DNA of 40,066 bases from positions 1-40,066 of IMG/VR virus record IMGVR_UViG_3300034236_000017. One strand, 5' to 3'. The DNA is from a virus. The position numbers were made by a program, and so were the translations under genes. How positions within the stretch are numbered: position 1 is the first letter of the stretch; every line of letters starts with the position of its first letter. Below, one piece after another: positions 1,998 through 30,441 of the stretch. The notes beneath the pieces were generated by a model. It saw nothing but the letters and a program-made list of their open reading frames with translations. It was not told the origin of the DNA and made no database searches.

Positions 1998-2180
1998 ATG
2001 AAAACCCCTGTCGCGCAGGCTCAGACCGACCATGCGGAGGCGCTCAAAAGGGTGCGCGCTCTAGCGGAACAGTGGAACGAAACGCCCGATTACACGCCCA
2101 GCGTCTACGACCAGGGGCGAGTTGACCAGCGTCACGACATGACGATGCAGCTTCTCGAGGCGTTGGGCGACCAGGCCTGA
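1998..2180 (+). CDS. Small protein co-transcribed with integrase (60 aa)
   Basis: 60 aa, mostly charged and helical, beginning MKTPVAQAQTDHAEAL. ATG 1998 is chosen because a -10 hexamer ends only 6 nt upstream; an earlier in-frame start would lie in the attP arm. The stop TGA shares its last base with the integrase ATG at 2180, so translation is coupled. It resembles small accessory proteins found before actinophage integrases, but I recognise no family. Confidence 0.6.
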   Translation: MKTPVAQAQTDHAEALKRVRALAEQWNETPDYTPSVYDQGRVDQRHDMTMQLLEALGDQA

Positions 2181-3379
2181 TGGCCTCCGTTCGCACCCGC
2201 CAGGCCAGGGACGGCTCCACGACGTACGCCGTCCTCTACCGCGTGGGCAAGAAGCAGTCGTCGCGCGCCTTCACCGACTCGAAGTCGGCCGAGAAGTTCA
2301 AGACGCTGTGCGACGTGCTCGGCCCGATGAAGGCCATCGCGACCATCGAGGCGGACGGGACCGGGGCGCTCACGCTCGACCAGCTCGCGGCCGAGTTCTT
2401 CGACTGGAAGAAGCGCGACGTCGAGCTCCGCACGATCAAGGACTATCGCCGCGACTACGCCAACTGGATCCAGCCGCGCCTGGGGCACCGCGTCGCTGAG
2501 ACGGTCGACGAGCTCGACGTGCAGCAGCTGGTCGACCACATGGCGACCCGCCTCGATGCGAAGTCGGTCGGCGACCGGCACATGATCCTGCACTCCATCT
2601 ACAAGTACGGCTCGGCCCGGTCCCGGCGCCTGGTCACGCACAACCCCTGCCTCGAGACGCAGATGCCGAAGCGGACGAAGAAGCCGCCGAAGGGCGTCCC
2701 GCTCCCAGCCTGGTTCGCGCTCCGTGCCCACGGTCGGGACATCGAGCCCGATGCGCTCGACCTCGCCGAGTTCATCGTCGCCACCGGCTGGCGCTGGTCC
2801 GAGGCCGCAGCCCTGACCATCGAGCATGTCGACTGCTATTTCGACGACGATGGCACGGACCTCACCGTCGCCACCATGGGCAACGTGATGCGCGCCGGCC
2901 AGGTGGTCCCGGGCGCCAAGTCGCGCGCAGGGTTCCGGGCCAGCAAGGTCCCGGAGCCCGCGGCGTCGATCGTGCGCCGGCGGATGGTCGGCAAGGGGCC
3001 GACCGATCTCATCTTCACCAACGACCAGGGCCGCAAGTGGTACCAGCAGAACTTCCTCAACCGGACATGGCCGCGGATCCTGCGCGCGGCCGGCCTGCCC
3101 GATGACCCGGGCACGCGCTACACCCCGCACCAGCTGCGCCACACCCAGCCGATGCTGCTCAACCGAGCTGGGGCGACGCCGGCCGAGATGCAGCGACGGA
3201 TGGGCCACGAGTCCATCACCACGACGCTGAACGTCTACGGCGGGATGATCGACGACATCCCCAACGACGTGCTGGCCAAGGTCTCCGCGCTGCTCTCGGA
3301 CGCCTCCCCCGTCATCGAGGGGTCCGTGGTGTCGGGCGAGCTGGTCTCCGGCGATACCACCGCTGCCACGCCTCGATGA
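2180..3379 (+). CDS. int: Tyrosine-type site-specific integrase
   Basis: 399 aa, normal for phage integrases. It inserts and, with an excisionase, removes the phage at a host tRNA gene. The N-terminal about 60 residues form an arm-binding-type domain, about 70-160 a SAM-like core-binding domain, and about 175-370 the catalytic domain. Catalytic residues visible: Arg205 in GWRWSEA, His317 and Arg320 in HQLRH, His343 in GHES, and the nucleophile Tyr353 in NVYGG. The attP it should use lies directly upstream. The 3' end overlaps the convergent ImmA-like gene by 68 bp. The last about 30 residues are a polar tail. Confidence 0.96.
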   Translation: MASVRTRQARDGSTTYAVLYRVGKKQSSRAFTDSKSAEKFKTLCDVLGPMKAIATIEADGTGALTLDQLAAEFFDWKKRDVELRTIKDYRRDYANWIQPRLGHRVAETVDELDVQQLVDHMATRLDAKSVGDRHMILHSIYKYGSARSRRLVTHNPCLETQMPKRTKKPPKGVPLPAWFALRAHGRDIEPDALDLAEFIVATGWRWSEAAALTIEHVDCYFDDDGTDLTVATMGNVMRAGQVVPGAKSRAGFRASKVPEPAASIVRRRMVGKGPTDLIFTNDQGRKWYQQNFLNRTWPRILRAAGLPDDPGTRYTPHQLRHTQPMLLNRAGATPAEMQRRMGHESITTTLNVYGGMIDDIPNDVLAKVSALLSDASPVIEGSVVSGELVSGDTTAATPR

Positions 3380-4841: not shown

Positions 4842-4954
4842 ACTGCGTCGCCGGGTGCATCTGCAACTGCGGACAGGGCGGCTGCGGCTGCCACGAGGGC
4901 CAGCGCCCGACGCTGCCCCCGCTCCCCCAGCGCAAGCCGAAGGCGAAGACATGA
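4838..4954 (+). CDS. Tiny Cys-rich protein (38 aa)
   Basis: 38 aa, overlapping neighbours by 4 nt at both ends (ATGA). Six Cys fall within its first 18 residues (CVAGCICNC, then CGCHEG), followed by a Pro/Lys-rich tail. Probably a metal-binding or disulfide-rich peptide. No family recognised; supported mainly by the tight coupling and by the many similar neighbours. Confidence 0.5.
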   Translation: MNCVAGCICNCGQGGCGCHEGQRPTLPPLPQRKPKAKT

Positions 4955-5082
4955 CCGAGACGCCACTACCCGGGCCGTCGTGCCGCATGTGCGCCGAGCT
5001 GGGCCGTCGCCAGAACAAGGAAGCGATCGTCCGCAAGGGCCGCGTTGTCGGCCTCTACTGCCCGACCTGCGACCGCCCCTGA
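4951..5082 (+). CDS. Zinc-ribbon mini-protein (43 aa)
   Basis: 43 aa with two CxxC knuckles, CRMC and CPTC, separated by 22 residues, the spacing of a zinc ribbon. ATGA overlap with the preceding gene. Likely a small nucleic-acid or protein-binding Zn protein. It closes the first early run; a hairpin-rich gap follows. Confidence 0.6.
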   Translation: MTETPLPGPSCRMCAELGRRQNKEAIVRKGRVVGLYCPTCDRP

Positions 5083-5084
5083 TC

Positions 5085-5169
5085 GTCACCTCTCGTCGTG
5101 ACCACCCATGGCGAGAGGTGACAACCCAGAACAGCACGAAACCCCCGCAACCGGCCAGGCCTCGGGGGT
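5085..5169 (+). promoter_or_regulatory. Two hairpins in an early leader
   Basis: The 116-bp gap holds a perfect 11-bp inverted repeat (5085-5095 with 5112-5122, 16-nt loop) and a second 7-bp stem ACCCCCG/CGGGGGT (5141-5147 with 5163-5169). The first arm can also pair with GTGAC at 5098-5102, giving a competing smaller hairpin. No T-run follows. It could be an attenuator, an RNA-processing site or a small RNA. Confidence 0.45.
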
Positions 5170-5198
5170 CTCGCAACAACTCACACGAAGGGTACGAC

Positions 5199-5357
5199 AT
5201 GAACCAGCAAGAGAGCATCCCGCAAGTAGGCGGCTGGGTCGGCATCGTCGACGGCCAGCTGCTCCTCGTCCGCACCTACGCCGACGAGACCGTGACCGTG
5301 GCCATCCGCAACGACGAGCGCTGGGGCCCCGAGGTCGAGCTCGAGGTGGCTCCATGA
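5199..5357 (+). CDS. Small hypothetical protein (52 aa)
   Basis: 52 aa starting MNQQESIPQVGGWVG, with predicted beta strands (LLLVRTY, TVTVAI). ATG 5199 follows CGAAGGG as a fair ribosome-binding site and stands 30 nt after the second leader hairpin. The stop overlaps the next ATG by 4 nt. It looks like a single small beta-barrel. No known family. Confidence 0.6.
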   Translation: MNQQESIPQVGGWVGIVDGQLLLVRTYADETVTVAIRNDERWGPEVELEVAP

Positions 5358-5545
5358 GCGCCTACGAGATCGCCGGCCTGACGCTCTGCGCCCTGATGCT
5401 CGCGTGGCTGGCTCTCGACGCCCGGGCCGCCGCGAAGCGCAAGGCGTTCCGCGCCCACGTCGACCAGGCCCTCGCTGCCCATGCCGCCGACGTCCGCAAG
5501 CGCGGCCTCGACGCCAACGCAAGCGGCCACAGGTGGCAGGGATGA
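5354..5545 (+). CDS. Single-span membrane protein (63 aa)
   Basis: 63 aa. Residues about 4-23 (IAGLTLCALMLAWLALDA) form one transmembrane helix, followed by a basic, helical cytoplasmic tail (AAAKRKAFRAHVDQAL). ATGA overlaps on both sides. Early small membrane proteins of this kind often act in host take-over or superinfection exclusion, but nothing here shows which. Confidence 0.6.
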   Translation: MSAYEIAGLTLCALMLAWLALDARAAAKRKAFRAHVDQALAAHAADVRKRGLDANASGHRWQG

Positions 5546-6219: not shown

Positions 6220-6578
6220 GCCGCAACCGCAAGTCGGCCAAGAGCGCCGGGACCGCCTTCGAGACGCTGATCGCCGGCTACCTCGCCCTGCACGTCGATG
6301 ACCGCATCGAGCGCCGTCGTCTGTCTGGGTCCAAGGACCGCGGCGACCTCTCGGCCTGGCGCTTCGCCGGTCGCCGGATCGTCGCCGAGTGCAAGGACTA
6401 CGGCGGCCAGCTCAAGCCCGGCCCGTGGATCGGCGAGGCAGAGGTCCAGCGCCTCAACGACGACGCCCAGGTCGGGCTCGTCATCGCCAAGCGCCGCGGC
6501 ACCACCGACCCGGGCGACCAATTCGTCCTGATGACCCTTCGCGACTTGATCGCCCTCACGACCGGAGAACGCCCATGA
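6216..6578 (+). CDS. PD-(D/E)XK-type phage resolvase/nuclease
   Basis: 120 aa from GTG 6216. After a basic N-terminus comes FETLIAGYLA, then RRLSGSKDRGDLSAWRFAGRRIVAECKDY. The Asp in RGDL and the ECK triplet match the PD-(D/E)XK metal site, and the size fits the Holliday-junction-resolvase-like phage nucleases of actinophages. A likely role is resolving branched replication DNA before packaging. It directly precedes the cytosine methyltransferase with a 4-nt overlap, so a restriction-type partner role was considered, but it is small and carries no specificity domain. Confidence 0.75.
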   Translation: MSRNRKSAKSAGTAFETLIAGYLALHVDDRIERRRLSGSKDRGDLSAWRFAGRRIVAECKDYGGQLKPGPWIGEAEVQRLNDDAQVGLVIAKRRGTTDPGDQFVLMTLRDLIALTTGERP

Positions 6579-7975
6579 ATCACCTCATCGTTCCCGGCGA
6601 GGGCGGCCTCGCCGACGACCTCTTCGCCGGAGCGGGCGGCTGGGACCTTGCCGCTGCCCAGCTCGGCATCCACGCCCGCGGCATCGAGAACATGAAGGAG
6701 GCCCGCGCCACCCGTGACGCGGCTGGCCTCGAGACGATCCACGACGACGTCTGGACCTTCAGGCCGAAGTACGTCGCCAGGGGCGGGGCACTCGTGCCGA
6801 TTGCCTCGGGCCTGATCGCCTCCCCTCCTTGCCAGACGTTCTCGGCAGCGGGCAAGGGCTCGGGCCGCAAGGCGCTCGACGACGTACTGACAGTGCTGCC
6901 GCAGGTCAAGGACATGACCCTGGCCGAGCTGCGCAAGGCGGGCGAGGTCTTCGGCGACGACAGGACGGCGCTGGTCCTCACCCCGCTCTGGTTCGCCCTC
7001 CACCACGACTACGAGTGGTTGGCGTGGGAGCAGGTCCCGACCGTGCTGCCCGTCTGGCAGGCCTGCGCCGAGGCGCTGCGTGAGGCGGGCTGGTCCGTCT
7101 GGACAGGCAACCTGCAGGCCGAGATGTTCGGCGTCCCCCAGACCCGCAAGCGTGCCTTCCTGCTGGCATCCAAGACCGGCGAGGTCGCCCCGCCCACCCC
7201 GACCCACTCGCGCTACTACTCGCGCAGCCCCGCGAAGCTCGACGAGGGCGTCGCGAAGTGGGTCTCGATGGCCGAGGGCCTCGGCTGGGGACTCATCCAG
7301 CGCCCGTCCTTCACCATCACGGGCGGCTCGTCCCACGCCGCGTCAGGGATCGAGTGGGGCGGCGCCTCAGTTCGCGAGCAGCTGATCGACCTGGCGGCCA
7401 ATGACCCCGAGGCGTGGCGCGCGAAGGGTTGGGGCCTCACTGACCGGCCGTCGCCGACCATCACGGGAGGCGGGACCGAGACGGGTGGAGCCGAGCCCAT
7501 CGCCAAGCTCGACCGCTACACCAGCCGCGAGGATTGGCTGGCTAGTCCGTCTGGCATCACTGGCCCCTGTGTCCGCCCGCTAGATCATCCAGCGGCAACC
7601 GTGACGGGCACGCACAACTACTACGCCTTCACGGCCGAGGAGTGGGAGCGCCGGAACCCCGAGCGCGACCTGCCGGAGTGGGCGCACAAGCGCCCGGCTA
7701 CCACCGTCGTCGGCTCCTTCTGTCCTGACGTGATCGCGGCGCCTGGCTACCGAACCACCGTCTCGCGCCAGAACGCCCTCAACAGCGTGCGCGTCACCGT
7801 CGCCGAGGCCGGGATCTTGCAGAGCTTTCCCGCCGACTACCCGTGGCAAGGCACCAAGGGCAAGCAGTACCTGCAGGCGGGCAACGCCATCCCGCCGGGC
7901 CTCGCCCTGCACGCGCTGGCCTCTGCCGCGCGCATCGCACTCCACTCCTCCTCCGACATCCGAAAGGCCTCCTGA
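6575..7975 (+). CDS. DNA C5-cytosine methyltransferase
   Basis: 466 aa from ATG 6575. Motif I is DLFAGAGGWDLAAAQLG (residues about 14-30) and binds AdoMet. Motif IV is SPPCQTFSAAGKG with catalytic Cys86. Motif VIII is QTRKRAF and motif X GNAIPPGLA. Between VIII and X lies an unusual series of four RPSPTITGG-like segments. No restriction gene adjoins it, so it is an orphan phage methyltransferase that probably shields phage DNA from host restriction or marks it for timing. Target sequence unknown. Coupled to the nuclease before (4-nt overlap) and the HTH protein after (1-nt overlap). Confidence 0.93.
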   Translation: MNHLIVPGEGGLADDLFAGAGGWDLAAAQLGIHARGIENMKEARATRDAAGLETIHDDVWTFRPKYVARGGALVPIASGLIASPPCQTFSAAGKGSGRKALDDVLTVLPQVKDMTLAELRKAGEVFGDDRTALVLTPLWFALHHDYEWLAWEQVPTVLPVWQACAEALREAGWSVWTGNLQAEMFGVPQTRKRAFLLASKTGEVAPPTPTHSRYYSRSPAKLDEGVAKWVSMAEGLGWGLIQRPSFTITGGSSHAASGIEWGGASVREQLIDLAANDPEAWRAKGWGLTDRPSPTITGGGTETGGAEPIAKLDRYTSREDWLASPSGITGPCVRPLDHPAATVTGTHNYYAFTAEEWERRNPERDLPEWAHKRPATTVVGSFCPDVIAAPGYRTTVSRQNALNSVRVTVAEAGILQSFPADYPWQGTKGKQYLQAGNAIPPGLALHALASAARIALHSSSDIRKAS

Positions 7976-10776: not shown

Positions 10777-12108
10777 ATGAGCATGACCAGTTACCACGGC
10801 GGGCGAGTTGTGGTGTGGGGCGGCGACTGCCTCACCCTCATGGCCGCGATGGCGCCCGACAGTGTCGACTCGATCGTCACCGATCCCCCGTACGGCCTCG
10901 GCTTCATGGGCAAGAAGTGGGACGACCTGCCGCCCGGGAAGGAGTGGGCCGAGGCCTGCTTCCGAGTGCTGAAGCCGGGCGGGCATCTCCTCGCCTTCGG
11001 TGGCACCCGCACCTGGCACCGCCTTGCGGTTGCCGTCGAGGACGGCGGCTTCGAGATCCGCGACTCCCTCGCCTGGCTCTACGGGTCGGGCTTCCCGAAG
11101 TCGATGGACGTGTCCAAGGCGATCGACAAAGCGGCCGGAGTGACCCGCGAAGTCGTCGGCGTGACGTCGACCCATGATGGTCGACCGCGCAGCTTGGCGC
11201 CCCGCGAGACGGGCGTGCATGAAGGACGCCAGTCGCATGGCGGCGTTGGACTCGACATCACCGCCCCCGCCACCTCCGAGGCCGAGCGGTGGCAGGGCTG
11301 GGGCACGGCGCTGAAGCCTGCCTTCGAGCCCATCGTTGTCGGTCGCAAGCCCCTCGCCGAGAAGACCGTCGCCGCGAACGTGCTCGCGCACGGGACCGGG
11401 GCGCTGAACATCGACGCGACCAGGACGGCGACGACTGACAAGCTCGGAGGCGGCGCCGAGAAGATCACCACCGCAGGACAGAAGGGCGACGAGGGCTGGA
11501 CGAGGCCGTGGATGTCTGACGCCGAGGCACAGGAAGCGCACGCGGAGAGAGTCCGAGCCAACGTCGCCAAGGCCGAAGATCTCGGCCGTTGGCCGGCTAA
11601 CGTCATCCTCGACGAGTCCCAGGCTGCGGTCCTTGACCAGCAGGCGCCCAACACTGGCGGATCCGGCAAGGCCTCGGGCCCGTCCCTGCGAGGACAGACC
11701 GACGCCGGGGTGGCCTACGGGGCTCGCAACGGGCTCGACGGCGAGCCCGCCTTCTACGGGGACAGGGGTGGCGCGTCCCGGTTCTTCTACGTCGCCAAGG
11801 CTCCCAAGTCGGAGCGGCCGATCGTCGAGCTGGCTGACGGGGCGAAGCTGGCCCACCCCACCGTGAAGCCGGTCGCGATCATGCGCTGGCTGGTCAGGCT
11901 GGTGACGCCTCCCGGCGGGCTGGTGCTCGACACCTTCGCCGGCACCGGCACCACCGGAGAAGCCTGCGTCCTCGAGGGCTTCCAGTGCCTCCTGGCCGAA
12001 GACCCGGCCAAGGGCGAGCAGGACTATCTGCCGCTGATCGATCAGCGCATTACCCGGGCACTGCTCACCCTTCCCTCTGCCGACGACGACGAGAAGGCGA
12101 GCGCGTGA
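10777..12108 (+). CDS. Beta-class DNA amino-methyltransferase (m6A or m4C)
   Basis: 443 aa. The catalytic motif DPPYGLGF (from residue 36) comes before the AdoMet site LDTFAGTGTTGEA (about 383-395), the beta-class order. The long middle (about 110-330) would hold target recognition. DPPY favours N6-adenine methylation, but N4-cytosine cannot be excluded. No cognate restriction enzyme is present. With the cytosine enzyme at 6575, the phage carries two orphan methyltransferases in one replication block, consistent with anti-restriction. The start follows AGGACGAAG as a ribosome-binding site, and the stop overlaps the primase GTG by 4 nt. Confidence 0.92.
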   Translation: MSMTSYHGGRVVVWGGDCLTLMAAMAPDSVDSIVTDPPYGLGFMGKKWDDLPPGKEWAEACFRVLKPGGHLLAFGGTRTWHRLAVAVEDGGFEIRDSLAWLYGSGFPKSMDVSKAIDKAAGVTREVVGVTSTHDGRPRSLAPRETGVHEGRQSHGGVGLDITAPATSEAERWQGWGTALKPAFEPIVVGRKPLAEKTVAANVLAHGTGALNIDATRTATTDKLGGGAEKITTAGQKGDEGWTRPWMSDAEAQEAHAERVRANVAKAEDLGRWPANVILDESQAAVLDQQAPNTGGSGKASGPSLRGQTDAGVAYGARNGLDGEPAFYGDRGGASRFFYVAKAPKSERPIVELADGAKLAHPTVKPVAIMRWLVRLVTPPGGLVLDTFAGTGTTGEACVLEGFQCLLAEDPAKGEQDYLPLIDQRITRALLTLPSADDDEKASA

Positions 12109-14627
12109 CTCTCCTGCAAGCAGCCCTCGACCTCGCAGCCCATGGCTGCTCCGTCATCCCCGTCAACAACGACGGATCCAAGCGACCCCTCATCGCGTGG
12201 AAGCAGTTCCAGACCGAGGCGGCCGACGCGGCCACCATCAACGGCTGGTTCTCCACCAACGCGATCGAGGGCGTCGGCGTCATCACTGGCGCAGTCTCGG
12301 GCAACCTCGAGCTGCTCGAGGTGGAGGGCCGCGCGATCGACCTCGTGCCTCCGCTCGGCGCGCTGCTCACTGACTCAGGCATGGGCGAGCTCTGGGCCCG
12401 CATCTGCTCCGGCTGGCTCGTCCAGTCCCCCTCGGGCGGGCTGCACTTTCTCTACCGGATCGAGGGCGCGGTCGCTGGCAACACCAAGCTGGCCCGGCGG
12501 CCCAACCCCGACAATGACCAGCTGGTCGACGTGCTGATCGAGACCAGGGGCGAGGGCGGCTACCTCGTCACCGCTCCCTCCGGCGGCTCGGTCCACCCGA
12601 CCGGCAAGAGCTGGGTCGTTATCGCCGGCGGACCTGCCACCTGCCCAGTCCTGACCGTGGACGAGCGCGACGCCCTGCACCTCGCCGCCTCCACCTTCGA
12701 CGCCATGCCCGCCCGCGACGTCTACCCCGAGCCCTCGGCGCACAAGGCGACCTTCGACTCAGGTGCCGACGGGCTGCGCCCCGGCGACGACTACAACAAC
12801 CGGGCGAGCTGGGACGACCTGCTCACGCCCCTGGGCTGGCAGCGCATCAAGAAGATGGGCAACGGCTACGGGTGGGTTCGCCCCGGCAAGGACACCCGCG
12901 ACGGGATCTCAGCCACTACGGGCACCGCTCACGACGGCGTCGACCGGCTCTACGTCTTCAGCTCCTCGACCGAGTTCGAGACCGAGCGGCCTTACTCCAA
13001 GTTCGCGGCGTACGCCCTGCTCGAGCATCACGGGGACATGGCAGCGGCTGCCTCCGCACTGCGGAAGCAGGGGTACGGCACCGAACGGCCGGAGGCGAAG
13101 CTGACCCTCGTCGGCGGGCCTGAGCGACCCACGCCCGGAGCGCCGTACGCCGCAGCAGGCCAGCAGGCCCAAGCCGCAACCGACGGCGCCGCTGTGCTGC
13201 AGCTGCGGCCAGCACCCGAGAGCACCGTCTCCGACTCCGAGGACGCCCACGCGCAGCGGCTGATCGTGGCGTACGGCGACCTGATCCGCTACTGCCCCCA
13301 GCGCGAGAAGTGGCTGACCTGGTCGGGCACGCGGTGGGTCTGGCAGCCGAAGGGAGGTGGGCTGGTCCGTGAGTACGCCAAGAGGGTCGCTCGCGGGCTG
13401 ACCGAGAGCGAGGCCCAGCTGGCCCAGCGACGCAAGGCACTGTCGTCGGCAGGCATCTCGGGCTGCCTCAAGCAGGCCGAGACCGACGAGCGGATCCTCG
13501 TCGACATGGGGGCGCTCGACGCCGACGGGTGGACGCTCAACTCCCCCGCCGGGCCGATCGACCTGCGCACGGGCGAGCTCCTGGCGCCCGACCCGGCCGC
13601 GCTCTGCACCAAGTCGACGACCGTGGCGCCCAACCGCGAGGACGATGCAGCCGCCGAGCTCTGGGCGACCTTCCTCGCCGACACCTTCGGCGACGACATC
13701 GAGCTACGCGACTACGTGCAGCGCCTGGTCGGCGTGACCCTCATCGGCGAGGTCCGCGAGCAGCTGCTGGCCTTCCTGCACGGCCTCGGAGCCAACGGCA
13801 AGTCCACGCTCGCCGAGGCCCTCATGCACGCGCTGGGAGTCGGTGAGGCTGGCTACGCCATCGCGGCACCCTCGGAGATGCTGATGATCCGCAAGCACTC
13901 CGAGCACCCGGCCGAGCTCGCCCAACTCGCCGGCGCCCGCATGGTGGTCTGCTCCGAGCTGGACGACGGCCAGAAGTTCGCCGAGGCGCGGATCAAGCAG
14001 CTGACCGGCCGGGACAGCGTGAACGCGCGATTCCTCTACGGGAACCCCTTCACCTTCACCCCGACCCATACGCTCTGGCTGCTCGGCAACCATCGGCCCC
14101 AGGCGGCAACGGGTGGGCTGGCGTTCTGGCGCCGGGTGAAGCTGCTTGAGTTCGCCCACGTCGTGCCCGTCGAACATCGCGACCCGGCGCTGGGCGACAA
14201 GCTCAACGCCGCGGCCGGGACCATCCTGGCGTGGGCGATCGACGGCTGCGTCGACTATCTCGCTCGGGGCATCCGCGAGCCCCGAGCAGTCTCCGAGGCG
14301 GTGGCTGCGTACGCCGCTGACCAGGACACGGTCGGGCGCTTCGTCGAAGACATGTGCCACCGCGCCGACTCCACTCTGGTCAGGGTCAAGACGCGAGACC
14401 TGCGCAACGCCTACGAGTCCTGGTGTGGCGACGTGGGCGAGGCTGCCGTCTCTCCCAAGCGATTCGGCCAGGAGCTCCGAGAGCGCTTCAACGTCACCGA
14501 GGCCAAGTCCAACGGGCAGCGGTTCTACGCCCGGATCATGCTCACGGAGACCGAGGCGGAAGAGCCGGCGCCGGCCGCTCCGCCGGCCGCAGACGAGCCC
14601 CAGGCGACCTTGGGATTCGTCCGATGA
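12105..14627 (+). CDS. Bifunctional primase-polymerase / SF3 helicase
   Basis: 840 aa from GTG 12105. The N-terminal about 230 residues are a prim-pol domain (HGCSVIPVN, WFSTN, GVITG, then LELLEVEG with an ExE-like pair instead of the usual DxD/E, and SGGLHFLYR). The middle resembles the D5/P4 N-terminal helical region. The C-terminal half is a P4-type superfamily 3 helicase: Walker A GLGANGKST from residue 560, the Walker B-like segment VVCSELDDGQ, and the sensor LWLLGNHRP. It should initiate and drive phage replication. The iteron cluster begins 5 nt after its stop, a typical initiator-origin arrangement. The C-terminal WSWCGDV-like domain may bind DNA. Confidence 0.92.
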   Translation: MTLLQAALDLAAHGCSVIPVNNDGSKRPLIAWKQFQTEAADAATINGWFSTNAIEGVGVITGAVSGNLELLEVEGRAIDLVPPLGALLTDSGMGELWARICSGWLVQSPSGGLHFLYRIEGAVAGNTKLARRPNPDNDQLVDVLIETRGEGGYLVTAPSGGSVHPTGKSWVVIAGGPATCPVLTVDERDALHLAASTFDAMPARDVYPEPSAHKATFDSGADGLRPGDDYNNRASWDDLLTPLGWQRIKKMGNGYGWVRPGKDTRDGISATTGTAHDGVDRLYVFSSSTEFETERPYSKFAAYALLEHHGDMAAAASALRKQGYGTERPEAKLTLVGGPERPTPGAPYAAAGQQAQAATDGAAVLQLRPAPESTVSDSEDAHAQRLIVAYGDLIRYCPQREKWLTWSGTRWVWQPKGGGLVREYAKRVARGLTESEAQLAQRRKALSSAGISGCLKQAETDERILVDMGALDADGWTLNSPAGPIDLRTGELLAPDPAALCTKSTTVAPNREDDAAAELWATFLADTFGDDIELRDYVQRLVGVTLIGEVREQLLAFLHGLGANGKSTLAEALMHALGVGEAGYAIAAPSEMLMIRKHSEHPAELAQLAGARMVVCSELDDGQKFAEARIKQLTGRDSVNARFLYGNPFTFTPTHTLWLLGNHRPQAATGGLAFWRRVKLLEFAHVVPVEHRDPALGDKLNAAAGTILAWAIDGCVDYLARGIREPRAVSEAVAAYAADQDTVGRFVEDMCHRADSTLVRVKTRDLRNAYESWCGDVGEAAVSPKRFGQELRERFNVTEAKSNGQRFYARIMLTETEAEEPAPAAPPAADEPQATLGFVR

Positions 14628-26630: not shown

Positions 26631-27158
26631 ATGCCCATCCCCCAGCGCACTGACGAGGTCGTTCTCTTCCAGGACGACGATCAGCACGAGCTCCGCGCCC
26701 TCGGCAAGGCCGTCGAGGCCGCGGCGACCTCGTCGGACTCCCCACGTCGCCTCGGAGACGATGACGACGTTCTGGCCGCAGCCAAGGCCTACGACGAGTT
26801 CCTCGAGCAGGCCGCCGAGCGGGGCACGAAGGTCGCCATCAAGGCCATTCCGGGGAAGAAGTGGCGCGAGCACGTGGCCGCACATCCTCCCCGCGAGAAG
26901 AACGAGGACGACGCCGAGTGGGGCTTCAACCACCTCACGCTCGGCGACGCCGTGGTGCCTGAGTGCGTGACCAGCATCGACGGACAGCCGGCGTCCCAGG
27001 ACGACCTCGACAACCTCAACGACGGCGACTACTCCAAGATCTACGCTGCGGTACTGCGCCTGAACACGGGGCGTGGTCCGGACCCAAAAGCCTCGATCTC
27101 GGCGACACTCCGGCGGACCTCGCCCGAGACCTCCGAGTCTCCCGAGCGCTTGGGCTGA
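26631..27158 (+). CDS. Tail assembly chaperone (G-type frame)
   Basis: 175 aa. Mostly helical and acidic (VLAAAKAYDEFLEQAAERGTK, then KKWREHVAAHPPREKNEDD), normal for lambda G-like chaperones that load the tape measure. Its last part overlaps the T-like frame with a canonical -1 slip site at 27083-27089. Terminating at 27158 in frame 0, or slipping to give a GT fusion of about 291 aa, are the two expected products. Strong ribosome-binding site AAAGGA. Confidence 0.88.
   Translation: MPIPQRTDEVVLFQDDDQHELRALGKAVEAAATSSDSPRRLGDDDDVLAAAKAYDEFLEQAAERGTKVAIKAIPGKKWREHVAAHPPREKNEDDAEWGFNHLTLGDAVVPECVTSIDGQPASQDDLDNLNDGDYSKIYAAVLRLNTGRGPDPKASISATLRRTSPETSESPERLG
27083..27089 (+). other. -1 programmed frameshift site CCCAAAA
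   Basis: CCCAAAA fits X-XXY-YYZ with CCA and AAA as the frame-0 codons (CCA begins at 27084, in register with ATG 26631). A -1 slip joins frame 0 to the frame that runs to 27505. The site is 70 nt before the frame-0 stop. Confidence 0.9.
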
Positions 27159-27505
27159 CGCTCGCCCAACTGGACGCCCTGCCTGTCGCCGAGCGCCTCC
27201 TGCGCTACGCCGAGGACGACCGCGATCGCCTGAAATGCACGTCGTGCGGTGGCTCCGTCGAGGACTGCTCTGACCCGGATCGGGAATGGTTCCCGCAGCG
27301 CACGATCTGCTACAAGGCGATGGACCGAGCGGCAGCCAATGCGCGGTACGACAGCCTTCACGAGGAGCTCCCGTATCACGACGGGTCCTTCGAGGACTGG
27401 GTCAAGGAGCGCTCGGCCAGTCACCCCTACGCGAGCCGAGACGGCGTCACGATCTGGGTCCACGACGTCGATCTGGACCCCCAGGACGACTTCCTCGGCG
27501 GCTGA
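27089..27505 (+). CDS. Tail assembly chaperone, frameshifted T-type extension
   Basis: 138 residues reached by the -1 slip, beginning SLDLGDTPAD. It contains ALGLTLAQLDALPVAERLLRYAEDDRDRL and a C-terminal zinc-like pair (CTSCGGSVEDC). No good independent start lies near its beginning, as expected when only the fusion is made. The GT product should bridge chaperone and tape measure in tail assembly. Confidence 0.85.
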   Translation, partial: SLDLGDTPADLARDLRVSRALGLTLAQLDALPVAERLLRYAEDDRDRLKCTSCGGSVEDCSDPDREWFPQRTICYKAMDRAAANARYDSLHEELPYHDGSFEDWVKERSASHPYASRDGVTIWVHDVDLDPQDDFLGG

Positions 27506-27510
27506 TCGGA

Positions 27511-27645
27511 CTAGCCGGCGCCGCTCATCTGCCGGAGTGCCATCACGGCCACGACTGCGATCACGACCCAGCCCCAGATGTAGAGGCCCGTCTTAACGAC
27601 GTGCTTGGCGGTGTTGTACACCGGATCTTCTCTCTTGCTCCCCAT
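27511..27645 (-). CDS. Small leftward single-span membrane protein
   Basis: 44 aa from ATG 27645 (50 aa from ATG 27663), on the opposite strand in the gap between chaperones and tape measure. Polar N-terminus (MGSKREDPVYNTAKHVVKTG), then one strongly hydrophobic helix (LYIWGWVVIAVVAVMAL) and a short tail. Minus-strand TACGCT lies 6 nt before the ATG, so a leaderless promoter is possible. It stops 5 nt from the chaperone stop (convergent). It behaves like a lysogen-expressed moron; superinfection exclusion is a reasonable but unproven guess. The remaining open frame upstream on this strand is only antisense to the tape measure. Confidence 0.6.
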   Translation of the reverse strand: MGSKREDPVYNTAKHVVKTGLYIWGWVVIAVVAVMALRQMSGAG

Positions 27646-27696
27646 CTGGTGAGCGTAGGTCATCTCTGTCGGAACCACCATGAAAAGGGGTGACCA

Positions 27697-30441
27697 GTGG
27701 CTACACGCCGCGAGCGGGTGATCCTCGACCTGCAGGACGACTTCACCCCAGGCATGGCGCGCGCGGCTGCTGCCACCGCACTGCTGAACCGCGAGCTCAA
27801 CTCGCTGTCGACGAACAGCGTCCAGGCGTCGAGGTCGTCGCAGGCGTTCGTGCGCGACGTGCAGAGCATCAACAAGGAGGCCGACGGCGCTGGCCGGACC
27901 ATCGACCGCCTTTCTGGCCGCGTGGGCATCCTCGCGGACCTGCTCCTGACGTTGGGCCCTGCGGCCATCCCGATCGGTGCGGTCGCCGTCCCAGCCCTCA
28001 CGATGCTGACGGCCGGCCTTGGCGTCGCGGTGATCGCGGCCGGGTCGGCGGTCATTGCCTTCCAGGGGGTCGGCGAGGCGCTCGACGACCTGAACAAGGC
28101 GCAGCTCGACCCCACGACTGCGAACCTCGAGGCCGCCGCTGCGTCCATGAAGCGGCTCTCGCCCATCGCCCGGGACATGGTCAAGCAGCTGGACTCCCTC
28201 GGCGGCCTGCGCAAGCAGCTGACCGAGGCCGGTGCCGACGCGCTGTTCCCCGACCTCATCAAGGCTCTCGACGTCATCGTGGAGCGCGGTCCAGAGGTCG
28301 AGGCGATCGTCCGCGCCATCAACACCGAGCTGGGCGACATTGCGCTCGACACCGCCAACTCGCTGAACTCGAAGCGCTGGGACGACTTCTTCCGCATGGT
28401 GGAGACCCGGGGCCCCGGGGCGCTTGACGGCATGGCCGACGCCCTCGGCAACGTTGTTCACGGCCTTTCCGAGATCATCGAGGCCTTCATACCGTTGAAC
28501 AAGGACGGCATGGAGTGGCTGATCGACGCCACGGAGGGCTTCGACAAGTGGGCCAAGGGGCTCAAGAAGACCGACGACTTCAAGGAGTTTGCGCGCTACA
28601 TCCGCGACAACGGTCCCGAGCTGGCCGAAACGCTGGGTTCCGTCTCGGACGCGCTCGTGGACATTATTGTCGCCGCATCCCCGATGAGCGGCCCGGCCCT
28701 TGACGCAATTCAGGCGTTCGCCGAGGCGGTGTCGGCCGTCGCCGAGTCGGACTTCGCCACCCCGCTCCTGGTGGCCATCACCGCGATGCGGACCATCAAC
28801 CGGCTGGCCCCGGTCACTGCCGCGTCGATGGCCATCCTGAGTGGCAGCGCGGCCGGCGGCAAGGGCAAGGGCAAGGGCAAGGGCAAGGGCGGCAAGGCTC
28901 CCAAGGGCGGCGGCCTCGGGCCCAACGCGGCTCTCATCGGCGCCGCGGTGGGCATCCCATTGCTCGATGACCTCGCTAAGGACAACTCGATCCTCGATGG
29001 CGTCGGGAACGCGGGCAAGAAGTTGGGTGACAAGCTCGGCCTGCCGGACTACTTCGCGGTGAAGGTCGACGCTGACACGAAGCTCGCCGAGAACAAGATC
29101 GACTTCATCCGCAAGGAGCTCCGTCGCCTCAACGGCGAGAAGGGCAAGCCTTCGGTCGACCTGGACGACGCGCGCGCGAAGCAAAAGCAGCGCGAGGCGG
29201 ATGACTGGATCCTCGGGTGGGGCCGCAAGAACGCCTCGGCCAAGACCGGCATCCTCGACACCGACCGCCGCCAGAAGTCCAAGGCGGCCGACGACTGGAT
29301 CTCGGCCTGGGGCAAGAAGAACGAGAGCGCGACTGCTGACGCCAACAACGCCCCCGCGATGAGTGCGATCGCCGCCGTCCGCGCAGCCCTGGCTGGCCTC
29401 GACGGCGACACCGCGACGACCTACGTCCGCACCGTCAACCTGGGCGGGATGGGACCGCAGGGCGACTTCGCCTCCGGTGGCTTCACCGGCCGAGGCGGCA
29501 AGTACGAACCCGCGGGCGTTGTTCACCGCGGAGAGGTCGTCATCCCGCAGGATCTGGTCAAGCGCGACTGGGGCCACCTGTCCTCGCGCTACGGTCACCT
29601 CCCTGGCTTCGCTGACGGCGGCCAGGTCGGCGGAGCAGGCGGCGGCCGCCACGGGCTTGCCGACGCCTCTGTGCTCAAGCTGATTCGCCAGCTCGGGGGC
29701 CTCGAGAGCGCACTCAAGCGCTACGACAAGGCCGTGACCCGCCAAGAGCGGGCGATCGACAAGCAGGGGCGCGTAGTAGTCGACAAGGCCACCTCTGACC
29801 GCGACACCGTGCTCGGCAAGATCGCGACCATCGCTGACGCGACGACCTCGGGCTTCCGTACCGGGCTGTTCGACACGCAGGACGTCGAGGCCGACTCGGT
29901 CTGGATGCCCGGCGCGCGCGGCCCTCGCAAGACGGGCGGCCCGTTCGACAACCTCTCGACCGACATCGCTGGGCTGCAGAAGCGAGCCGAGCTGCAGGCG
30001 CAGCTATCCCTCGCCGGCCTCGACGGCAATGCGTTCGAGAGCGCCATCTCGCAGGGCACGAACGACGACCTCGCCGCACTGCTGGCCGGCGGCCAGATCC
30101 AGCGCTTCGAGGACCAGTTCAACCAGCGCGAGGCGCTCCTGGCCTCGACCGGCGCTGCTGCCGGTCAGAGGCGCTACGGCGGAGAGCTCGCCGGCACGCA
30201 GGCCACGCTGGACAAGGCCGTGATGCATCTCGCCGAGTTGACCACGGAGAACCGCGAGATCAAGGCCGAGCTCCGGGCGCTCAACCAGGAGGAGCGCCAC
30301 CGTGACCGCGAGCGAGAGAAGGCGGCCGACGCTCGGGCCGACCGGCAGGCGGACCGCACATCCAACGGGGTCGGTGCGGCCCTCGACGGCAAGGCGGCAG
30401 ACGCTGCCCGCACCGGCCTGCGACCACGGAGGAACAACTAG
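27697..30441 (+). CDS. Tape measure protein
   Basis: 914 aa from GTG 27697, after AAAAGGGG. N-terminal coiled-coil (ALLNRELNSLSTNSVQASRSSQAF), hydrophobic spans about 85-130 (IPIGAVAVPALTMLTAGLG, VAVIAAGSAVIAF) and helical repeats, as expected for the length-determining protein that also channels DNA. A Gly-Lys tract encoded by (GGCAAG)5 near residue 388 and the C-terminal helices (LAELTTENREIKAELRAL) are notable. Length implies a tail of moderate size. No lysozyme or peptidase domain is apparent, unlike some tape measures. Confidence 0.93.
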   Translation: MATRRERVILDLQDDFTPGMARAAAATALLNRELNSLSTNSVQASRSSQAFVRDVQSINKEADGAGRTIDRLSGRVGILADLLLTLGPAAIPIGAVAVPALTMLTAGLGVAVIAAGSAVIAFQGVGEALDDLNKAQLDPTTANLEAAAASMKRLSPIARDMVKQLDSLGGLRKQLTEAGADALFPDLIKALDVIVERGPEVEAIVRAINTELGDIALDTANSLNSKRWDDFFRMVETRGPGALDGMADALGNVVHGLSEIIEAFIPLNKDGMEWLIDATEGFDKWAKGLKKTDDFKEFARYIRDNGPELAETLGSVSDALVDIIVAASPMSGPALDAIQAFAEAVSAVAESDFATPLLVAITAMRTINRLAPVTAASMAILSGSAAGGKGKGKGKGKGGKAPKGGGLGPNAALIGAAVGIPLLDDLAKDNSILDGVGNAGKKLGDKLGLPDYFAVKVDADTKLAENKIDFIRKELRRLNGEKGKPSVDLDDARAKQKQREADDWILGWGRKNASAKTGILDTDRRQKSKAADDWISAWGKKNESATADANNAPAMSAIAAVRAALAGLDGDTATTYVRTVNLGGMGPQGDFASGGFTGRGGKYEPAGVVHRGEVVIPQDLVKRDWGHLSSRYGHLPGFADGGQVGGAGGGRHGLADASVLKLIRQLGGLESALKRYDKAVTRQERAIDKQGRVVVDKATSDRDTVLGKIATIADATTSGFRTGLFDTQDVEADSVWMPGARGPRKTGGPFDNLSTDIAGLQKRAELQAQLSLAGLDGNAFESAISQGTNDDLAALLAGGQIQRFEDQFNQREALLASTGAAAGQRRYGGELAGTQATLDKAVMHLAELTTENREIKAELRALNQEERHRDREREKAADARADRQADRTSNGVGAALDGKAADAARTGLRPRRNN
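28858..28887 (+). repeat. (GGCAAG)5 tract in the tape measure
   Basis: Five perfect hexanucleotide units give GKGKGKGKGK. A contraction-prone microsatellite that could change tape-measure length by two residues per unit. Confidence 0.9.

Follow-up and report, generated by a model that had tools for sequence, protein, structure and literature searches.

What a short leftward reading frame is doing inside a rightward tail operon, and whether it is a gene at all, is the question raised by the junction between the tail assembly chaperones (TAC) and the tape measure protein (TMP) in the window, i.e., the whole 40,066-nt stretch of viral DNA that was analyzed. Positions 27511-27663 of its minus strand translate without a stop as MTYAHQMGSKREDPVYNTAKHVVKTGLYIWGWVVIAVVAVMALRQMSGAG, between the rightward TAC and TMP genes, and the 191-bp gap that holds this frame contains no rightward gene (Table 1). 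The phage is temperate, since it encodes a tyrosine integrase, in agreement with the prophage setting in which the preliminary description had placed the frame. The slippery heptamer in TAC1 would move translation by -1 into the TAC2 frame, as in the canonical programmed frameshift of tail chaperones. Elsewhere, the early region of the window encodes two DNA methyltransferases (6389-7975 and 10777-12108; C5-cytosine and N6/N4), and these are adjoined by a primase-polymerase/D5 helicase region (11985-14627).

Table 1. Coordinates of features discussed in the text, by position in the window
Feature	Position	Strand	Basis or remark
Tyrosine integrase	2180..3379	+	PF00589 E=3e-14; phrog_1 E=9e-45
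TAC1, tail assembly chaperone, first frame	26631..27158	+	tblastn against annotated tail assembly chaperones of Arthrobacter phages
Slippery heptamer C_CCA_AAA in TAC1 frame	27083..27089	+	Read from the sequence
TAC2, tail assembly chaperone, second frame	27090..27505	+	66-68% identity to L052/L053, same order
Insert (moron) of 191 bp, TAC stop to TMP start	27506..27696	.	Not present in L052/L053
Leftward gene for a single-pass membrane protein of 44 aa (leaderless start at 27645 most likely)	27511..27645	-	Translation; codon-position GC, codon usage and shuffles; AlphaFold2 helix
Additional N-terminal residues in the 50-aa form (first ATG, 27663), more likely promoter region	27646..27663	-	ATG-nnC-TAC-nnT-6 nt-ATG also in L151 and L156
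-10-like hexamer TACGCT	27652..27657	-	6-nt spacing to the ATG at 27645; a convincing -35 is lacking
Tape measure protein (TMP)	27697..30441	+	PHROG tape measure matches; tblastn

Coding signature and start of the leftward gene

The open frame alone proves nothing, because the antisense frame that holds it stays open for 744 aa, back to position 29745. GC content at the three codon positions of the ORF is 0.58/0.42/0.87, compared to 0.66/0.49/0.90 in the genes of this phage, and codon usage favors the ORF frame (+0.12 per codon, the best of the other five frames scoring -0.34). In addition, 50,000 dinucleotide-shuffled versions of the 191-bp gap yielded no minus-strand ORF of at least 40 aa with a 19-residue hydropathy of at least 2.1. 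Codon-position GC, codon usage, and shuffles all support a frame that is coding, leftward, and equipped with one transmembrane helix. Both hydropathy and AlphaFold2 describe the product as a small protein with a single transmembrane helix, which in the AlphaFold2 model of the 50-aa form spans residues 14-46 (pLDDT averaging 91-92 over residues 21-40).

The hexamer TACGCT lies inside the longer, 50-aa frame, exactly 6 nt upstream of the ATG at 27645. TANNNT is the dominant -10 motif of actinobacteria, in which a conserved -35 is usually missing; it is found at 73% of primary start sites in M. tuberculosis, with no conserved -35 (PMC3898074). The 6-nt spacing is that expected for a transcript beginning at the A of the ATG. 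The same ATG-nnC-TAC-nnT-6 nt-ATG arrangement within a slightly longer frame recurs in two unrelated genes of the corresponding TAC-TMP slot (L151, ATGCCCTACAATTGCGGGATG; L156, ATGCCGTACCCTGACGGAATG; window, ATGACCTACGCTCACCAGATG), which, together with the position of TACGCT, favors the shorter form. Thus, the most likely product is the 44-aa protein MGSKREDPVYNTAKHVVKTGLYIWGWVVIAVVAVMALRQMSGAG, starting at the second ATG. A sigma-70 consensus scan returned no promoter in this region; actinobacterial TANNNT promoters fall outside the pattern used by that scan.

The preliminary description had reported a leftward single-helix gene at 27511-27663 between the chaperones and the tape measure, with a candidate leaderless promoter. 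The gene is borne out by the translation, the coding signature, and the AlphaFold2 helix, and the promoter by a leaderless-type geometry that recurs in unrelated slot genes. With respect to the 44-50-aa product first given, the frame proved real, and the TACGCT-6 nt-ATG geometry corrects the start to 27645 (44 aa).

The assignment of this protein to no described family likewise stands, since searches of Pfam, PHROGs, PADLOC, and NCBIfam returned nothing significant, and this includes the PADLOC models of known anti-phage defense systems. No homologue was detected by tblastn in phages, nor in the genome contigs and six cellular genomes searched; among viral contigs, one other copy was found, identical and on another contig. 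Two candidate relationships were rejected: a Sie-like superinfection exclusion profile (phrog_8545, E=0.037) matched the hydrophobic part only and was not significant, and the BLAST alignment to HK97 gp15 covered only 16 hydrophobic residues (6/16).

Recurrence of the chaperone-tape measure slot

In the closest relatives of the window phage, L052 and L053, gene order is the same (MTP, 49% identity; TAC1, 59%; TAC2, 66-68%; TMP, 45%) and the slot is empty, TAC2 running without a gap into the start of TMP, which it overlaps. Relative to these two, the window has 191 bp more, comprising a gene and its candidate promoter. Elsewhere, the slot is occupied by other genes. Small leftward membrane genes lie between TAC and TMP in the Arthrobacter phages Judy, Hestia, TripleJ, Faja, Persistence, Seahorse, Auxilium, and Gorpy, as well as in Microbacterium phage Footloose. 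Where annotated (Judy gp18, Hestia gp18, Persistence gp17, Seahorse gp19, Auxilium gp18, TripleJ gp17, and Footloose gp15), they are labeled only as "hypothetical" or "membrane protein". In Arthrobacter phage Isolde, the GenBank record leaves the gap unannotated, and a 59-aa leftward membrane gene with TACAAT-6 nt-ATG was found there (L136, 3333-3512, minus strand). The slot is also occupied in a prophage-like locus on a contig of a cellular genome (L131) and in environmental contigs (L016, L022, L028, L049, L063, L148, L151, L155-L157, L160, L161, L164, L167, L173, L177, and L178). The stop codons of these genes adjoin that of TAC or overlap with it, in many cases by 4 nt.

Judged by eye and from searches, the slot genes form ~12 groups without mutual similarity, a number that reflects judgment rather than clustering. 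These other leftward membrane genes, combined with the empty slot in L052 and L053, mark the window gene as an accessory insert (moron) rather than an artifact or false gene. The preliminary description had taken loss of the frame from relatives that keep the flanking genes as a sign against it; such loss is indeed seen in L052 and L053, and, read with the recurrent slot genes, it points to an accessory moron. Presence and absence alternate in the Arthrobacter-type TAC clade as well, because 10 of its loci (L158, L159, L162, L163, L165, L166, L168, L169, L171, and L172) have empty slots of ~15-35 nt with a ribosome-binding site. The slot is likewise empty in most capsid-based relatives, so the presence of a slot gene does not go with capsid type; the automatic codon filter of that survey overlooked L063, which has an occupied slot and low GC3. 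An order-wide search with a chaperone profile gave six matches in 396 genomes, one with an occupied slot (L131). The survey as a whole was driven by chaperone and capsid searches, and its counts describe the loci so found, not a frequency across all actinobacteriophages.

The promoter geometry recurs along with the position; all promoter and topology assignments are computational. In the first set, 6 of 14 slot genes have TANNNT exactly 6 nt upstream of the ATG (expected, 0.13; 0 of 20,000 shuffles), and when genes whose start was chosen by the analyst are left out, 4 of 11 have this spacing (again 0 of 20,000 shuffles). The loci fetched later gave 10 of 12, several of them being relatives of one another and of the Arthrobacter genes. 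A different arrangement, TATGAT 28-32 nt upstream and a G-rich leader, is seen in Hestia, Persistence, Seahorse, and Auxilium. Protein-level constraint is indicated by dN/dS values of 0.13-0.69, mostly <0.5, in the Hestia-type and Judy-type families, some pairs being saturated at synonymous sites; these values describe Arthrobacter slot families and not the window gene, whose single other copy is identical. An integrase is encoded by all four carriers checked (Judy, which also has a repressor and an excise gene, Hestia, Footloose, and Persistence).

Several occupied slots have features of their own. The L016 slot contains two leftward membrane genes in tandem (4860-5410), each having the TANNNT-6 nt-ATG arrangement, with a second copy of the TAC 3′ end between them (ggaagatttgtcgcc...cttcttgggctag); the cargo unit looks to have been duplicated with its borders and then to have diverged. 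In L049, the closest capsid relative, the slot holds a leftward lipoprotein gene (~14124-14540, minus strand) with lipobox LSAC (MMKRTVALAACLAALSAC|SSEEE...) and TAGGCT-6 nt-ATG. The minus-strand genes of L028 (3607-3885) and L178 (4404-4733) have in common a soluble stretch, FDGxPxVT...GYxLxxQ..., beyond an N-terminal helix, and their products are possibly one family with an outside domain. Four unrelated slot proteins (L016, 4893-5081; L022, 4904-5041; L131; and Judy gp18) match the Pfam family DUF3040 weakly, below the cut-off (E 0.014-0.075); perhaps these four were borrowed from host membrane proteins, or perhaps a common composition is all that is seen. Neither these sub-threshold matches nor that to phrog_8545 was counted as evidence.

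No description of this slot pattern was found in the open-licence papers that the literature search reached. Taken singly, the window gene is a modest finding; the interest lies in the recurrence of the slot.

Possible roles of the product

The reading tentatively preferred here, at somewhat less than an even chance, is that the window gene encodes an exclusion peptide expressed in the lysogen and acting at DNA entry, perhaps via the tape measure. According to this model, promoter and leftward gene would have been dropped between TAC and TMP as one accessory unit. Host RNA polymerase would read the gene from its own leaderless -10-type promoter, against a silent late operon, making prophage expression possible. 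The 44-aa product would sit in the cytoplasmic membrane with its positive N-terminus inside, one helix across, and a C-terminal tail of ~7 residues outside, where it could hinder an incoming siphovirus from injecting its DNA, perhaps through contact with the tape measure as it enters or with the membrane proteins that the tape measure uses, as HK97 gp15 reportedly does. Linkage to the TMP gene would keep the exclusion gene with the tail type on which it acts. Exclusion at DNA entry is taken as the most likely role because the gene has its own promoter-like element opposing the late operon, the carriers are temperate, and the peptide is dispensable, fast-changing, and membrane-anchored, and because HK97 gp15, Tab, and SNIPE (see below) offer precedents. 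Against it, neither profile search nor BLAST found meaningful homology between the window protein and any exclusion protein. The lack of a recognizable -35 in the window promoter and the seemingly near-constant presence of the slot gene in the Arthrobacter carriers also count against it.

Identical anatomy and the same prophage promoter geometry would also be expected of a lysogenic-conversion peptide with another job, such as altering the host surface or membrane physiology or serving as a triggered, membrane-depolarizing effector of abortive infection. The chemical variety of slot products, which include the lipoprotein of L049 and the larger soluble domains of L028 and L178, fits such a role in that their targets need not coincide. 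Lysogenic conversion of this kind nevertheless appears unlikely, since it leaves unexplained the constant position beside the tape measure, which HK97 gp15 also occupies.

A role in the lytic cycle of the phage itself, as a small membrane protein for DNA entry or for holin/antiholin-like modulation of lysis, is improbable. A small protein with one transmembrane helix would suit it, as would the seemingly near-constant presence of the slot gene in the Arthrobacter carriers. However, the gene is dispensable, the slot being empty in close relatives and in the 10 loci of the Arthrobacter-type TAC clade, and a separate leaderless promoter opposing the late operon fits late expression poorly. Moreover, Judy has a lysin and a membrane-protein gene, and Footloose an endolysin and several such genes, downstream of the tail genes. 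A holin as such was rejected for the window gene, which lies in the tail operon and not in a lysis cassette beside an endolysin, the carriers Judy and Footloose having lysis cassettes of their own.

The leftward promoter might alternatively serve mainly to produce an antisense RNA by which TAC and other tail genes are silenced in the lysogen, in which case the peptide would be incidental. Leftward transcripts would enter TAC because the stops abut or overlap, yet the protein-level constraint in slot families, the coding signature in the window, and the persistence of membrane anchoring across unrelated sequences make this reading very unlikely. The absence of any gene, i.e., a chance open frame in GC-rich DNA, is extremely unlikely: it would agree with the 744-aa antisense frame and with the identity of the sole other known copy, whereas the coding signature and shuffle result in the window, the empty slot in L052 and L053, the dN/dS constraint, and the recurrent TANNNT-6 nt-ATG geometry all oppose it.

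Comparison with known systems

In phage HK97, gp15 (~60 aa) is located between TAC (gp14) and TMP (gp16/H). It is reportedly a superinfection-exclusion moron with a single transmembrane segment, whose target is linked to the tail tube or tape measure. HK97 gp15 and the window gene are alike in occupying the TAC-TMP slot and in being small, accessory, and provided with one transmembrane helix. They differ in that gp15 is rightward and the window gene leftward, the helix is N-terminal in gp15 and C-terminal in the window protein, and one phage is enterobacterial and the other actinobacterial; the two proteins have no homology beyond the hydrophobic stretch.

The orientation of the window gene has a counterpart in Tab of Pseudomonas phage JBD26, a small minus-strand moron in the late operon whose own promoter is active in the prophage and whose defense is linked to the TMP (PMC10884400). 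Tab thus demonstrates that a minus-strand gene of a late operon with its own promoter can be a tape-measure-linked prophage defense. The window gene has the same orientation and, judged from its sequence, a promoter-like geometry. In contrast, Tab lies between terminase genes, has 83 aa, acts on tail assembly rather than entry, and is accompanied by an anti-Tab gene (PMC10884400). SNIPE indicates that a membrane-bound defense can meet a siphovirus tape measure at the injection site (PMC13190303). Among actinobacteriophages, gp30/31 of mycobacteriophage Sbash form a two-gene, RexAB-like system of prophage-mediated defense that adjoins a likely tail gene (PMC6426596); a prophage-expressed defense with a membrane component is also what is proposed for the window, although the Sbash system differs in gene number, position, and size.

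Further counterparts are the Arthrobacter and Microbacterium slot genes, which occupy the identical slot, are leftward, encode membrane proteins, and in several cases have the promoter geometry of the window gene; their products have no sequence similarity to the window protein, and most are 56-84 aa long with two helices. Somewhat more tentatively than the role of the window gene itself, we suggest that the TAC-TMP junction of temperate actinobacteriophages may be a dedicated, previously undescribed slot whose cargo consists of exclusion genes that are leftward, leaderless, and membrane-anchored, turn over quickly, and are paired with the neighboring tape measure. The 44-aa ORF supplies a rule for such genes, namely a membrane gene with TANNNT-6 nt-ATG on the opposite strand in the gap between tail chaperone and tape measure of temperate actinobacteriophages. 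If slot proteins are exclusion proteins, the slot would be a source of new anti-phage genes, with the neighboring tape measure as the likely target of each, and would account for several genes of Arthrobacter and Microbacterium phages that are annotated as "hypothetical" or "membrane protein", as well as for the gene missed in Isolde. Each phage would then shield its lysogen against tails of the type that it makes itself, and in HK97 gp15 this solution would have arisen independently, on the opposite strand.
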